In this document: positions 24,254-30,509 of the stretch, piece after piece
Layout of the letters: each line of letters opens with the position of its first letter
Position numbering within the stretch: position 1 is the stretch's first letter
Origin: Clostridiales bacterium
GTDB lineage: Bacteria > Bacillota > Clostridia > Christensenellales > Aristaeellaceae
Reading direction: 5' to 3'
DNA length: 33,631 nucleotides
Assembly: GCA_012523405.1 (NCBI GenBank)
Contig: JAAYIN010000109.1
Coordinates: 1-33,631 of the forward strand
The notes under the pieces: model-generated
What the model was told of the DNA's origin: nothing
Databases searched by the model: none
What the model saw: only the letters and a program-made list of their open reading frames with translations
Position numbers and translations under genes: made by a program

Positions 24254-24392
24254 TTTTGTTACGAATGTGTTTTTCTTTCGTCGGATTATTTGATTAATTT
24301 GAAGCACATATGATGCATGAAAATGGTAAACTAAGTCGTTGTCATTATTGGATAGATGTAAAACCGACAACTATCCTAAAGGAGTATTCACG

Positions 24393-25565
24393 ATGATTAA
24401 AAAGGCTTTTTCCACGTTACTGTCGGCAGTTTTCTGTTTAACGCTATTATTGGGCTGCTTCACATCTTCTCAAGCCGAAGATTATTTCAACATCAATATC
24501 GATGTGCTTGATATGGACAGCTTAAATAGCAACGAATACGTAACGCGCAATCTATCCTCTCAGTCCCAAGGCATCAGCGTAAGTAAATACATCAGCGATT
24601 CCAGCGAGCTTGCTGTACCTGTTAGGCTAACGCTTGTTCAAACGGACTCCAACACCTTGCTTTTTGACAAGGATTATGGCTATCAAAGCGGCACGTTTGA
24701 TAGCGGTGTTATCTATCTTCCTTATGTAGATAGCCGAACCATCCCTTATCTGGTCACGCTTTACGTGGCTGATTACACCTATGCCATGCCTTTCATGCAC
24801 CTCATGCCTCGCCTTGAGTACAACGGTGCAAGCACCTACGGGTTACGCCTTCGCGACATCGCCCCTGGTCTATACACAGACTGGCTGATGGGCACGATGA
24901 TCGATCTTGACTCGCTGCGCTCTGGCGCCAGCCAATCCATTGACATTTGCGCGAGCAACTCCTATATCATCGGTCAGGCAAATGTTTGGATGCAGGGCGA
25001 TTCAGTCTGCGTTGATACAAGCTTTTATGACTCGGCCAATGTCCAGATCAACACCTGTTCTCTCTATATGATTACCAATTGCTCAGAAGCGGGCAATGGC
25101 GCATCCGCCTCCCAGTTCTCCAACTATTCCCTTGGACAATCCATTGATGTGTCGGGCGCAAGCTCTGCACTCTTGTATATGCCCATGCAGGTGAGCTACA
25201 ACACAGACGGTTTGAGCACATTTAGCTACAGCGCTTCCTCCTCTCAGCAAGCCCTATGGCAAAGCAATATCGCATGCGGTGCATCCCAAGAATCCTATGC
25301 ACAGGATGACTACACCGCCGACATTCAGACCGACAGCAGCGGTTGGGATGATAATAGCGGCTGGGATACAGGCAGCGGCTGGGATACAGGCAGCGGCTGG
25401 GACGACAACAGTGGTTGGGATGATAACAGCGGCTGGGATACAGGCAATGGCGATGATTTCTTTGACAATGAGCCCATTGAGGCAAATCCCGATGACGGAA
25501 CCATCTACTATGACGATGGCTGGGACGATACCAGCGGTTCTGACGATTGGTCAAACGACTGGTAA
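24393..25565 (+). CDS. Secreted protein with Gly-Trp-Asp repeat tail, 390 aa
   Basis: A signal peptide covers about 1-28. It can be read two ways: cleavage at a possible lipobox LLGC (lipoprotein), or A-type cleavage at SSQAED. The body (30-315) has beta-type segments, with DYFNINIDVLDMDSLN at its start and CASNSYIIGQANVWMQGD near the middle, and no known domain. The tail carries six back-to-back copies of the six-residue unit SGWD(D/T)(N/G), followed by an acidic Trp-containing end (DGWDDTSGSDDWSNDW). ATG 24393 follows AAAGGAG (24378-24384). The gene has its own terminator. Function is unknown; the aromatic/acidic tail suggests calcium, glycan or wall binding, which is speculation. Confidence 0.7.
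   Translation: MIKKAFSTLLSAVFCLTLLLGCFTSSQAEDYFNINIDVLDMDSLNSNEYVTRNLSSQSQGISVSKYISDSSELAVPVRLTLVQTDSNTLLFDKDYGYQSGTFDSGVIYLPYVDSRTIPYLVTLYVADYTYAMPFMHLMPRLEYNGASTYGLRLRDIAPGLYTDWLMGTMIDLDSLRSGASQSIDICASNSYIIGQANVWMQGDSVCVDTSFYDSANVQINTCSLYMITNCSEAGNGASASQFSNYSLGQSIDVSGASSALLYMPMQVSYNTDGLSTFSYSASSSQQALWQSNIACGASQESYAQDDYTADIQTDSSGWDDNSGWDTGSGWDTGSGWDDNSGWDDNSGWDTGNGDDFFDNEPIEANPDDGTIYYDDGWDDTSGSDDWSNDW
25339..25446 (+). repeat. 18-bp tandem coding repeat, six copies
   Basis: Units of the form AGCGGCTGGGATRAYARC encode SGWDxx. Copies differ mainly at the last two codons (DN versus TG). Confidence 0.85.
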
Positions 25566-25862: not shown

Positions 25863-26579
25863 TTATTCTCCAAACCCGCCATTGATCCCTATGATCTGAC
25901 CCGTGATAAAGCCTGCGCTATCCCCGCAAAGAAAGACGAGTGCGCCCGCGATATCCTCAGGCGTTCCAAGCCTGCCAACGGGGGTTTCTTCTTTGAGCTG
26001 GGCAAGGGTCTGGGCATCATAGCACGAGAGCATATCGGTTTGAATCACGCCCGGGCAAATGCAATTGACCGTGATGCCGCTTGGTGCGACTTCCTTTGAA
26101 AGCGCCTTCGTCATGCCGATAAGCCCCGCCTTTGAGGCGGAGTAATGCACCTCGCAGCTCGCGCCCGCCTGCCCCCAAATGCTGGATACATTCACAATCC
26201 TGCCATCCTTTTGGGAGATCATCTGGGGGAGCACCGCTTTGGTGACATAAAATGCACTGCTAAGGTTTGTTTGCAGCATATGCTGCCACTGCTCGTCGGT
26301 GATATCCGTGAAGAGCATTTGCTGAGCGATCCCCGCATTATTGATCAGCACATCGATATGACGCAGCTGCAAAAGTGCTTCCTGGCAGCCAGCTCGTGCT
26401 GATTCGCCATCTGATACATCGCAGCAAATTGGGATGGCGCCTGTTTTCGCTGCCAGCGCCTGTGCTGCGTCTTCGCTCTTGAGATAAAAGAACGCCACTC
26501 GGTAGCCCGCCTTAGCAAACGCCAAAACCGCCGCCGCGCCAATGCCTCGGCTCCCGCCCGTAATCAATGCCGTCCTCAT
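25863..26579 (-). CDS. ymfI: SDR-family reductase, EF-P 5-aminopentanone reductase type (YmfI), 238 aa
   Basis: A NAD(P)H short-chain dehydrogenase with TGGSRGIG (7-14) for the cofactor, NNAG (80-83), a catalytic Ser in VSSIWG (131-136), and YxxxK at Tyr146/Lys150. The run SSIWGQAGASCEVHYSASK is the hallmark of YmfI, which reduces the 5-aminopentanone group on translation factor EF-P, rather than of FabG. A C-terminal GQIIGINGGFG is typical. The frame starts with GTG at 26591; ATG 26579 is preferred because it fits family starts and AAAGGAG lies 11 bp upstream. It follows corA after 31 bp, so both share a transcript and the corA leader. The EF-P role is a family inference, since a FabG-like role cannot be fully excluded. 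Confidence 0.8.
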   Translation of the reverse strand: MRTALITGGSRGIGAAAVLAFAKAGYRVAFFYLKSEDAAQALAAKTGAIPICCDVSDGESARAGCQEALLQLRHIDVLINNAGIAQQMLFTDITDEQWQHMLQTNLSSAFYVTKAVLPQMISQKDGRIVNVSSIWGQAGASCEVHYSASKAGLIGMTKALSKEVAPSGITVNCICPGVIQTDMLSCYDAQTLAQLKEETPVGRLGTPEDIAGALVFLCGDSAGFITGQIIGINGGFGE

Positions 26580-26610
26580 TTTCTCATTCACTCCTTTGCA
26601 CTGCCTGTTT

Positions 26611-27543
26611 TTAGAACATCTTCTTTTTAAAGAGCAATATCACTGCGCCTAGGCTTGCCACCAGCGAAATGCCGACCACAATCGCAAAGCCGACGGACGA
26701 TCCCTCAAACGGAACAGGCACGTTCATGCCCCACAGCGATGCAAAGATCGTCGGCACTGCCAGCACCACCGTAACGCTTGTGAGCACCTTCATGACGTTG
26801 TTGAGGTTATTGCTGATAATCGAAGCAAACGCGTCCATTGTGCCTGACATGATATCGCGGTAAATGGCGCACATCTCCATTGCCTGTTTGTTCTCGATGA
26901 TGACATCGTCCAGCAATTCGCTATCCTCTGGATATTTTCTCAGCATATCAAGGCGCATCAGCTTTTCAAGCACTAGCTCGTTGCCCTTAAGGCTTGTGGA
27001 GAAGAACACAAGGCTCTTTTCCAACTTCATCATTTGCAGCAGCTCTTGGTTGCGCATGCTCGCCTGCAAACGCTCCTGCACGAATATGCTCGCCTTATCG
27101 ATCTGCTTGAGGTAGGAGAGGTAACGGGAGGCATTTCGGTTGAGCATCTGGAGGATGAAGCGAGTGCGCTTGAATGTCCAAAATCCCCTCACGCGCTCCT
27201 CCGTGAAATCCGAAACAATCGAGCTATCTCGCGTTGACACGGTGATGATCACGTCATCCACCATGATGATGCCCATCGGGAACGTCGTGTAGCTATAGCC
27301 ATTGTCCTCCGCTTCCACATAAGGAACGTCAACAATGATCAGCGTTTGATCGTCATTTCTTTCGATACGTGCGCTTTCCTCTTCATCAAGCGCTGCCTGC
27401 AAGTAGGTCGGGTCAAGCGCAAACCGTGCGTTCAGGCCCTCGATCTCCTCGCGTGTTGGATTTTGAAGATGCACCCAGCAGCCCTTCTCAAGCGTGCTGA
27501 TTTCATTGAGGTGGTCATCCACCGTCAAATAGATTTTTTTCAT
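26611..27543 (-). CDS. corA: CorA-family magnesium channel, 310 aa
   Basis: This is a divalent-cation channel of the CorA type. The soluble N-terminal domain (1-245) is rich in acidic and helical segments. Two C-terminal membrane spans follow, with the essential pore signature GMN at 272-274 (LWGMNVPVPFEG in the external loop) and a basic tail KKKMF. Length matches bacterial CorA. The frame extends to 27606, but ATG 27543 is chosen because the protein then starts MKKIYLTV as in relatives. The ribosome site (AAAGGCAGG) lies inside the 3' arm of a terminator hairpin, which points to leader-controlled expression. Transport of Mg2+ (or Co2+/Ni2+) is from the family. Confidence 0.9.
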   Translation of the reverse strand: MKKIYLTVDDHLNEISTLEKGCWVHLQNPTREEIEGLNARFALDPTYLQAALDEEESARIERNDDQTLIIVDVPYVEAEDNGYSYTTFPMGIIMVDDVIITVSTRDSSIVSDFTEERVRGFWTFKRTRFILQMLNRNASRYLSYLKQIDKASIFVQERLQASMRNQELLQMMKLEKSLVFFSTSLKGNELVLEKLMRLDMLRKYPEDSELLDDVIIENKQAMEMCAIYRDIMSGTMDAFASIISNNLNNVMKVLTSVTVVLAVPTIFASLWGMNVPVPFEGSSVGFAIVVGISLVASLGAVILLFKKKMF

Positions 27544-27544
27544 A

Positions 27545-27597
27545 ACAAAAAACCTGCCTTTCTGCGTCCGCATAGCGGATATGCTCTCAGGCAGGTT
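27545..27597 (-). terminator. Attenuator hairpin overlapping the corA ribosome site
   Basis: On the minus strand AACCTGCCT (27597-27589) pairs with AGGCAGGTT (27559-27551), followed by a T-run (GGTTTTTTG) that ends four bases before the corA start. An inner hairpin TCCGC-ATA-GCGGA lies in the loop. The 3' arm contains the ribosome site, so folding would both stop transcription and hide the site. Confidence 0.8.
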
Positions 27598-27609
27598 CGA
27601 AAGCAAAGC

Positions 27610-27720
27610 TTACATACGGCTGATCAGAGCCGCTGCGATATTTGCCGAATGCCCGGAGCTACATGAAACTGTGGAAATGGTATCTTGAACTGTGTTTCGA
27701 CTATAAGGGTCCGCGTCCAC
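27610..27720 (-). CDS. 36-codon leader ORF upstream of corA
   Basis: GTG at 27720 follows AGGAGG (27733-27728) with 7-bp spacing and opens a frame to TAA at 27612-27610. The peptide begins MDADPYSRNT and ends in LISRM, with a Ser/Thr/Cys-rich middle (TVSCSSGHS). It lies in the 5' leader of corA, between the promoter (27789-27766) and the attenuator. The stop is 12 bases before the attenuator's first arm, so a ribosome at the stop would cover part of it. This is the layout of a translated regulatory uORF. The acidic-proline start resembles in kind the EPDP start of enterobacterial MgtL, but no homology is claimed. It could instead be a precursor peptide. Confidence 0.6.
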   Translation of the reverse strand: MDADPYSRNTVQDTISTVSCSSGHSANIAAALISRM

Positions 27721-27765
27721 TGTTGCTCCTCCTCTCGGCTTTGGGGTGATTTGATCCCTCTTGGT

Positions 27766-27794
27766 ATCATAGCTGTTTTGCCCTCAAGTGTCAA
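27766..27794 (-). promoter_or_regulatory. Consensus promoter for the corA-ymfI leader transcript
   Basis: On the minus strand TTGACA (27794-27789), exactly 17 bp, TATGAT (27771-27766). The start is predicted near 27759, giving a leader of about 215 bases before corA. Confidence 0.85.
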
Positions 27795-30378: not shown

Positions 30379-30509
30379 GGGGCTGTTGCAAAACAGCCGT
30401 TATCTTACAGAATAGTAGTAAACACACAAAAAAATCCACCTGCGAATCAAGTAATTCGCAGGTGGATTTTGTTGCTATTGCCTTTTGAAAAGACTTCTGC
30501 AACAGCCCC
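30379..30509. repeat. Nested inverted-repeat element with terminator core
   Basis: The outer arms GGGGCTGTTGCA (30379-30390) and its exact complement (30498-30509) enclose a perfect 17-bp hairpin (30431-30447 with 30454-30470, core ATCCACCTGCGAAT). A smaller hairpin GGCTGTT-GCAA-AACAGCC (30381-30398) competes with the left arm. The element is 131 bp and lies in the 620-bp non-coding gap upstream of mnmG. The inner hairpin would act as a terminator in either direction, with A4/T4 flanks. Confidence 0.75.

Follow-up and report, generated by a model that had tools for sequence, protein, structure and literature searches.

The window analysed here is a contig of 33,631 nucleotides (JAAYIN010000109.1) from a Clostridiales bacterium. 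On its minus strand, a leader region stands between secG and corA. The corA gene (26611–27543, minus strand) encodes a CorA-family channel of 310 residues (PF01544, E = 2e-54). It contains the GMN motif, and the corresponding columns are unchanged throughout an alignment of 16 CorA sequences. Mg2+ is the probable ion of this channel; the assignment is taken from family membership because the NCBIfam corA equivalog model scores 109.3, below its cut-off of 200.75.

An SDR gene lies 3' of corA (25863–26591, minus strand). Its best NCBIfam match is the EF-P 5-aminopentanone reductase YmfI (NF047420, 251.8 bits with a cut-off of 238). The EF-P reductase proposed at this position in the initial annotation is thus plausible as far as the identity of the protein is concerned. 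Cotranscription with corA would be a guess from the 19-nt gap between the two genes. A similar SDR gene is found downstream of corA in 14 of 18 loci from the window genus and genus g14 (of the four loci without it, L010 and L015 end too early to judge). It is absent from all eight family- or order-level loci, and the reductase is therefore placed outside the core system. Two further features of the window were recorded. An ORF of 408 residues (24339–25565, plus strand) has a hydrophobic N-terminus and a tail of Trp-Asp-rich repeats (GWDDNSGWD...), with no NCBIfam match. An inverted repeat of 17–18 pairs (30431–30470), terminator-like on both strands, is located upstream of mnmG.

Architecture of the corA leader

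All features of the leader are on the minus strand. Transcription would start from a sigma-A type promoter (27766–27794, TTGACA-17-TATGAT) that agrees with the consensus at 11 of 12 positions. The leader was compared with others of the same kind, giving a set of 19 (15 from the window genus and four from genus g14). The −35 element, the 17-nt spacer and TATNAT are present in 19/19, as are the uORF and both terminator arms.

The uORF (27610–27720) has a GTG start codon at 27720, a TAA stop codon at 27612–27610 and encodes the 36 residues MDADPYSRNTVQDTISTVSCSSGHSANIAAALISRM. Its ribosome site AGGAGG (27733–27728) is placed 7 nt 5' of the GTG. The product begins with MDADPYSR. Codons 1–5 (27706–27720) form an acidic-small-acidic-Pro head, which is a candidate pause or drop-off site according to the codon table across loci and the shuffle controls described below. 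The promoter, the uORF with its ribosome site and Met-Asp-Ala-Asp-Pro start, and the terminator beyond its stop codon had all been recognised in the initial annotation and are confirmed here.

Four segments of the leader can engage in alternative pairing. Segment 1 (27723–27740) comprises the ribosome site of the uORF and its flanks and can pair with segment 2. Segment 2 (27644–27659, GCTCCGGGCATTCGGC) is an RNA element within the uORF that pairs with either segment 1 or segment 3. Segment 3 (27583–27598, GAACCTGCCTGAGAGC) is the 5' arm of the terminator and the alternative, antiterminating partner of segment 2. Segment 4 (27551–27560, AAGGCAGGTT) is the 3' arm of the terminator and carries AGGCAGG, the likely ribosome site of corA, which ends 9 nt before the ATG at 27543. 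The terminator hairpin (approximately 27598–27551) starts 11–12 nt past the uORF stop codon and is followed by a T-run (27547–27552). The run counts at least five T in 17/19 leaders; L008 and L165 have four. A Rho site may exist in addition to this intrinsic terminator.

The fold of the whole leader is only a little better than that of shuffled sequences (z = −1.73; 9 of 200 shuffles are equally good). Rfam holds an M-box model. A scan of the leader against Rfam at gathering and E-value thresholds gave no family at its gathering score (best match MEG8_3, E = 0.42), no covariance match to the M-box (ykoK) and none to the enterobacterial mgtA and corA leader RNA families. This agrees with the earlier statement that the leader belongs to no recognised riboswitch class.

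Recurrence of the uORF head before Mg2+ transporter genes

A close corA homologue is present in 15 of 17 genomes of the same genus, and a uORF beginning with MDADPYS is found upstream of all 15. For a wider comparison, 36 of 185 loci were removed for lack of a CorA match, 11 because their leaders were identical and L179 because its gene is partial, which leaves 137 non-redundant loci. Genome G012 also has a second, weak CorA-like match (L142). At 69 of the 137 loci, a ribosome site and the strict head M-[DE]-x-[DE]-P are found no more than 350 nt before corA; among the loci found by CorA identity alone, the figure is 55 of 123. The same search gave no match on the reverse strand, none downstream and a mean of 0.06 in dinucleotide shuffles (maximum 1 in 50 rounds). 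Comparing uORF peptides for D/E-P at positions 2–5, as had been proposed at the outset, thus yields a recurring pattern. By sample (non-redundant), the strict head is present at 25/30 loci, 17/77 named loci, 12/15 loci and 1/1 locus (L141).

Eleven distinct pentapeptides occur among the 69 strict heads: MDADP (42), MDGDP (8), MDTDP (6), MEGDP (3), MESEP, MDSDP and MDPEP (two each) and MEAEP, MEADP, MDCDP and MDPDP (one each). Asp and Glu exchange at positions 2 and 4. Position 3 is small in all 69; MDYDP (L263) and MDIDP (L305) were seen elsewhere. All four codons are used for Pro5 (CCT 33, CCG 24, CCA 9 and CCC 3), and the uORF comparison found no conservation of the peptide past codon 8. Judged from these codons, the first five residues of the uORF are under selection at the peptide level, because Asp and Glu are exchanged, four Pro codons are in use and the remainder is not conserved.

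With the relaxed head M[DE]x[DEGS]P the count rises to 85/137 (shuffles 0.23, reverse strand 0, downstream 0), and the loosest head M[DE]xxP is found at 87 loci (shuffles 1.33, reverse strand 3, downstream 4). In the 16 loci gained with the relaxed pattern, Gly or Ser replaces the second acidic residue, for example in L126 (MEGGP) and L134 (MDAGP); two acids are therefore not essential. By the same comparison, the firmest features of the head are the acid at position 2 and the Pro at position 5, and the second acid is less firm. The strict head is missing from 68/137 corA loci and from 60/77 named ones. Named loci with it include the cultured species Ruminiclostridium cellobioparum (DSM 1351, L092) and Anaerobacterium chartisolvens (DSM 27016, L122) and MAGs of Fournierella and Pygmaiobacter; it is missing from the Methanosarcina loci L102, L120 and L124 and from the loci named Clostridium or Lachnospiraceae, although L126 and L134 have the relaxed form given above.

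Two early codons vary less than the peptide would allow: 60/69 leaders have GAC at codon 4 and 43/69 have AGT at codon 7 (AGC once). Such uniformity points to a constraint on nucleotides or codons in addition to that on the peptide, and the switch model does not account for it.

Genomes were also scanned blindly with a pattern of a ribosome site followed by D-[AG]-D-P, with the reversed pattern as control. In the class (391 genomes), the pattern gave 20 loci in 20 genomes, and the control matched three genomes. The motif is placed directly before corA in 14 of the 20 loci (window included). Of the remainder, one precedes a PRC/MgtE_N/CBS protein (L186), one (L187) encodes the first residues of a CNNM/CorC protein and four are elsewhere. 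In L186, an MDGDP uORF (1515–1625) stands before the gene; the protein was not counted as MgtE as no MgtE membrane domain was found.

In the phylum, the pattern matched 37 of 348 genomes. The signal is noisier than in the class because the control pattern matched 17 genomes. In the 30 loci returned, corA lies within 320 nt in six (window included) and mgtE in eight (L319, L321, L322, L323, L326, L328, L331 and L342). All eight mgtE calls were made by tblastn; six were sent to Pfam and all six were confirmed. In L322 and L326 the head frame overlaps the chosen mgtE start. L320 is cut by a contig end and the other 15 heads are inside longer frames or before other genes. Genomes G826, G864, G899, G954 and G978 of family f161 have two motif types each, and one example per type was examined, L342 (mgtE) and L343 (corA). 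The recurrence before corA, together with the mgtE cases, strengthens by comparison the MgtL-like reading given in the initial annotation: within the peptide it is acidic-x-acidic-Pro that is conserved, and such a uORF also precedes mgtE in other genomes.

Loci selected by protein score within the class gave lower counts. Among the best-scoring 30 MgtE_N loci the strict head occurs once (L263, MDYDP), with L269 added by the relaxed head; the genome of L263 (G426) also has a corA with MDTDP (L312). Among the best-scoring 30 CorA loci it occurs in at least three, a lower bound for a sample dominated by divergent CorA proteins, since ORF picking took a neighbouring frame in a few. An order-level scan with loose spacing and D/E matched 99 of 297 genomes, and the reversed control also matched many; it was used solely to choose 20 regions, 15 with corA by tblastn and five without.

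Other genes near the motif were recorded separately. DUF3866 and ABC-permease neighbours (L188, L325 and L327) were set aside as possible chance neighbours. In L325 and L327, from related genomes, MDADPEPQ or MDADPGPQ frames (63 residues, minus strand) are located 223 nt before an ABC permease, which is BPD_transp_1 in L325 and was identified by likeness in L327. CNNM/CorC proteins starting with MDADPSS, MDADPDPD or MDADPLS occur in L152 (429–1517, minus strand), L153 (511–1599, plus strand), L238 (303–1100) and L187 (239–1567); the starts are ambiguous for L152, L153 and L242. From their sequences, these MDADP starts may possibly be an in-gene counterpart of the leader.

Alternative pairing and predicted direction of control

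The antiterminator consists of GCTCCGGGCA (27659–27650) in segment 2 and TGCCTGAGAGC (27593–27583) in segment 3, which form about ten pairs with one bulged A. This longer, covarying pairing replaces the GCTCT/AGAGC antiterminator suggested previously. Segment 2 begins at codons 13–23 among the 19 leaders and occurs in three reading frames relative to the uORF (13, 1 and 5 leaders). As its frame varies, it is therefore conserved as RNA.

Pairing of each segment with its partner from the same species was compared with pairing across species, in swap tests that do not remove shared ancestry. For 1:2 the values are −17.0 (own species) and −14.4 (cross-species), and for 2:3 they are −20.8 and −17.3. 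Both differences are significant (5,000 permutations, p = 0.0002; 20,000 permutations, p < 0.0001), and they remain so when the set is reduced to 12. Own and cross pairing are alike for 3:4 (p = 0.33, 19 leaders), the arms of which hardly vary. Compensatory changes were noted by eye in 2:3 (GGAC/GTCC in L141, GAG/CTC in L008 and L163–L165, AAG/CTT in L003) and in 1:2 (GGAGTC/GACTCC in L014).

Pairing of the uORF with the terminator arm exceeds that of shuffled uORFs (p < 0.05) in 16 of the 19 leaders of the window genus and g14, with the mis-segmented L164 (p = 0.83) counted as a miss. Over all 69 loci, pairing of the uORF with the hairpin is significant (Fisher 2e-11), and the signal is confined to the window genus and g14. 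Outside them it beats shuffles in 5/50 loci (48 evaluated, all but L085 and L149), and therefore no general antiterminator is claimed. Among the strict-head leaders, 24/69 have at least five T after the detected hairpin. Several leaders outside the window genus and g14 have a hairpin over the ribosome site of the transporter instead; such a hairpin without a T-run suggests a translational output. In the mgtE leaders L319, L321 and L323, GGGGCG inside the uORF can pair with a CGCCCC arm that covers the ribosome site of the transporter. Read by eye, this arrangement favours the same logic with a translational output, which would be ON when the uORF is unfinished.

The effect of ribosomes on the leader was modelled by constrained folding with a ribosome as a fixed unpaired block, which is a crude mask. 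A start-bound ribosome covers the region from the ribosome site to codon 9. In the window leader, the expected pairs of antiterminator, terminator and anti-SD helix are 0.0, 10.6 and 11.6 with no ribosome, 10.4, 2.6 and 0 with a ribosome at the start, and 0, 10.6 and 0 with a ribosome over segment 2, where the loss of the antiterminator follows from the masking itself. A start-bound ribosome leaves the antiterminator favoured in 15/19 leaders (window included; not in L003, L008, L011 and L012). Without a ribosome, the terminator prevails in 15/19 (window included; not in L002, L141, L163 and L164). When segment 2 is masked, the terminator keeps at least seven expected pairs in 15/19 leaders and 2.1–4.2 in L002, L004, L005 and L163.

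The uORF extends 15–43 nt past segment 2 in 19/19 leaders. In sequence terms, the position of its end fits a ribosome that must cover segment 2 and not segment 3. Together, folding and uORF extent imply that corA would be ON only if ribosomes load and then stall early. In this model, corA should be switched ON by a failure of translation as early as DADP. The direction of control, which the initial annotation had regarded as unreadable, is thus predicted by the four-segment switch.

The opposite sign would require that finished translation leaves a ribosome on the stop codon and that this opens the hairpin over the corA ribosome site and turns the gene ON, with poor translation leaving it off. 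Such an arrangement is conceivable where the stop codon is very near or overlaps the transporter start, as in L085 (−10), L149 (+26), L342 (3 nt) and L331 (9 nt). A terminating ribosome covers approximately 10 nt beyond the stop codon. In the window, however, the stop codon is 14 nt away from the CCTG of the terminator 5' arm, and the distance is 13–47 nt across the window and its 18 like leaders. These distances also speak against the earlier idea that a ribosome at the stop codon masks the first arm. Furthermore, the antiterminator requires a free segment 2, and the GGGGCG-CGCCCC pairing in L319, L321 and L323 favours ON if the uORF is unfinished. The opposite sign is thus very unlikely. Equally improbable is an Mg2+-binding RNA, a riboswitch, as the ion sensor with the uORF merely tuning its output. 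The Mg2+ transporter gene downstream, the conserved RNA segments 1–4 and the uniform codons within the head would be compatible with it. On the other hand, Rfam gave nothing at threshold, and the element is a short one that occupies different frames relative to the uORF. In addition, segment 2 is spanned by the uORF in all 19 leaders, and it is the peptide head that recurs across the phylum.

A different question is what delays the ribosome. The same attenuator could respond to slow decoding and not to drop-off, with Pro5 sensing m1G37 of tRNA-Pro, charged tRNA-Pro or the EF-P status. TrmD requires Mg2+, and any pause at codon 5 would yield the same RNA outcome. Pro5 is common to the strict (69), relaxed (85) and loosest (87) patterns by their very design, with few chance matches to set against these counts, and a YmfI-like EF-P reductase gene follows corA in the window. 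The acidic residue at position 2 is likewise kept, however, and there is one conserved Pro without a Pro-Pro. With all four codons in use for Pro5, the pattern points to no particular tRNA, and the SDR gene is not a neighbour beyond the area of the genus. The argument has been made likewise in enterobacteria for the Pro codons of MgtL and MgtP. MgtP is described as responding to charged tRNA-Pro, and the same source adds that ribosome stalling at a lone Pro codon is not known (PMC8092293). Pro5 as the sensor is therefore considered unlikely, although at the level of sequence pause and drop-off, or Mg2+ and the state of Pro-tRNA and EF-P, are indistinguishable.

Proposed mechanism and known Mg2+ leaders

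The leader is probably a translation-dependent transcription attenuator for the CorA Mg2+ channel, which applies the logic of MgtL to an intrinsic terminator. By analogy, Mg2+ would be sensed through ribosome drop-off at the head, and the sensor would be the ribosome itself. With no ribosome on the leader, 1:2 would pair, 3:4 would form and corA would be off. During normal translation with sufficient Mg2+, ribosomes would traverse segment 2, 3:4 would form and corA would again be off. At low Mg2+, ribosomes would load, and the destabilising DADP head would make them pause or detach. A ribosome held there would cover segment 1, and the free segment 2 could capture segment 3. With 2:3 paired there would be no terminator; corA would be transcribed and its ribosome site exposed.

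A wider reading is tentative. Ribosome instability on an acidic-x-acidic-Pro head may be a general Mg2+ gauge of the phylum that works in two directions. Failure within the uORF of an importer gene (CorA, MgtE) would turn the gene ON, and failure at the N-terminus of CNNM/CorC proteins would lower their synthesis. In the window genus, the gauge would drive a four-segment intrinsic terminator with the ribosome site of the leader itself as segment 1, and low Mg2+ would be signalled only by ribosomes that load and do not advance. The reading is tentative in part because of the ambiguous starts of some CNNM proteins and the 17 genomes matched by the control pattern in the phylum scan. The occurrence of a similar head before two unrelated families of Mg2+ transporters in a blind search suggests widespread use, perhaps through convergence, of ribosome stability as a sensor of Mg2+.

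The literature consulted reports control by Mg2+ through a leader peptide that destabilises ribosomes for enterobacteria only. A full-text search, judged by title and start of the abstract and with most subscription papers and preprints outside its scope, gave no acidic-Pro Mg2+ leader outside enterobacteria among the matches listed. Two catalogues with uORFs among their entries do not use the word corA in their main texts (PMC8632094, PMC11109978). PMC12810186 is described as an M-box case, and the corA RNA motif is reported from gamma-proteobacteria and metagenomes (PMC6429828).

An in-gene parallel is CorC/YbeX of E. coli, the N-terminal IRD sequence of which has been proposed to lower its own synthesis with unstable ribosomes (Chadani 2021, cited in PMC12421838). 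It resembles the few CNNM proteins that start with MDADP in the genomes scanned. Unlike the uORF, it is part of the gene with no leader, and MDADP starts of CNNM proteins occur in only few genomes. In Salmonella, Asp2 and Glu5 of MgtQ are reported to impede translation and to raise mgtB; this uORF in the mgtC-mgtB intergenic region frees the mgtB ribosome site through alternative stems (PMC8092293). MgtQ thereby resembles the variants outside the window genus with a hairpin over the ribosome site, but it has eight codons, is intercistronic, acts on translation and is restricted to one operon.

CorL of E. coli (Salmonella is also cited) is alike in being a uORF before corA with a response to Mg2+, and its translation is described as inversely related to corA expression (PMC11552253). 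Termination there is Rho-dependent, whereas the window leader has an intrinsic terminator, and the corA RNA motif was compared through Rfam only.

The pairing scheme has its counterpart elsewhere. Trp-type attenuators combine mutually exclusive 1:2, 2:3 and 3:4 pairing with an intrinsic terminator. The window leader has both in common with them: mutually exclusive helices are predicted, and the swap tests support 1:2 and 2:3. It differs in that segment 1 is the ribosome site itself and the signal lies at codons 2–5; a cluster of codons for a regulated amino acid was not found in the uORF, which is unconserved past codon 8.

The closest likeness in logic is to MgtL of mgtA (E. coli and Salmonella). 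In E. coli, low Mg2+ is reported to favour ribosome dissociation on EPDP so that mgtA is transcribed; early acidic residues that are adjacent or one apart pause or dissociate ribosomes, and two acidic residues by themselves are described as insufficient to destabilise them (PMC11282234). The known control of MgtL is Rho-dependent, whereas the window leader has an intrinsic terminator that overlaps the corA ribosome site and uses the ribosome site of the uORF as segment 1. It has no Rfam match and comes from unrelated bacteria, and nothing places it in the mgtL or corL RNA families. Nevertheless, the leader would work like MgtL. Both have an N-terminal head of acidic residues and Pro within the first five codons (MDADP in the window), both precede a gene of an Mg2+ transporter family (CorA by Pfam in the window, elsewhere also mgtE), and the window leader is predicted to share with MgtL the ON state that arises when ribosomes fail at the head.
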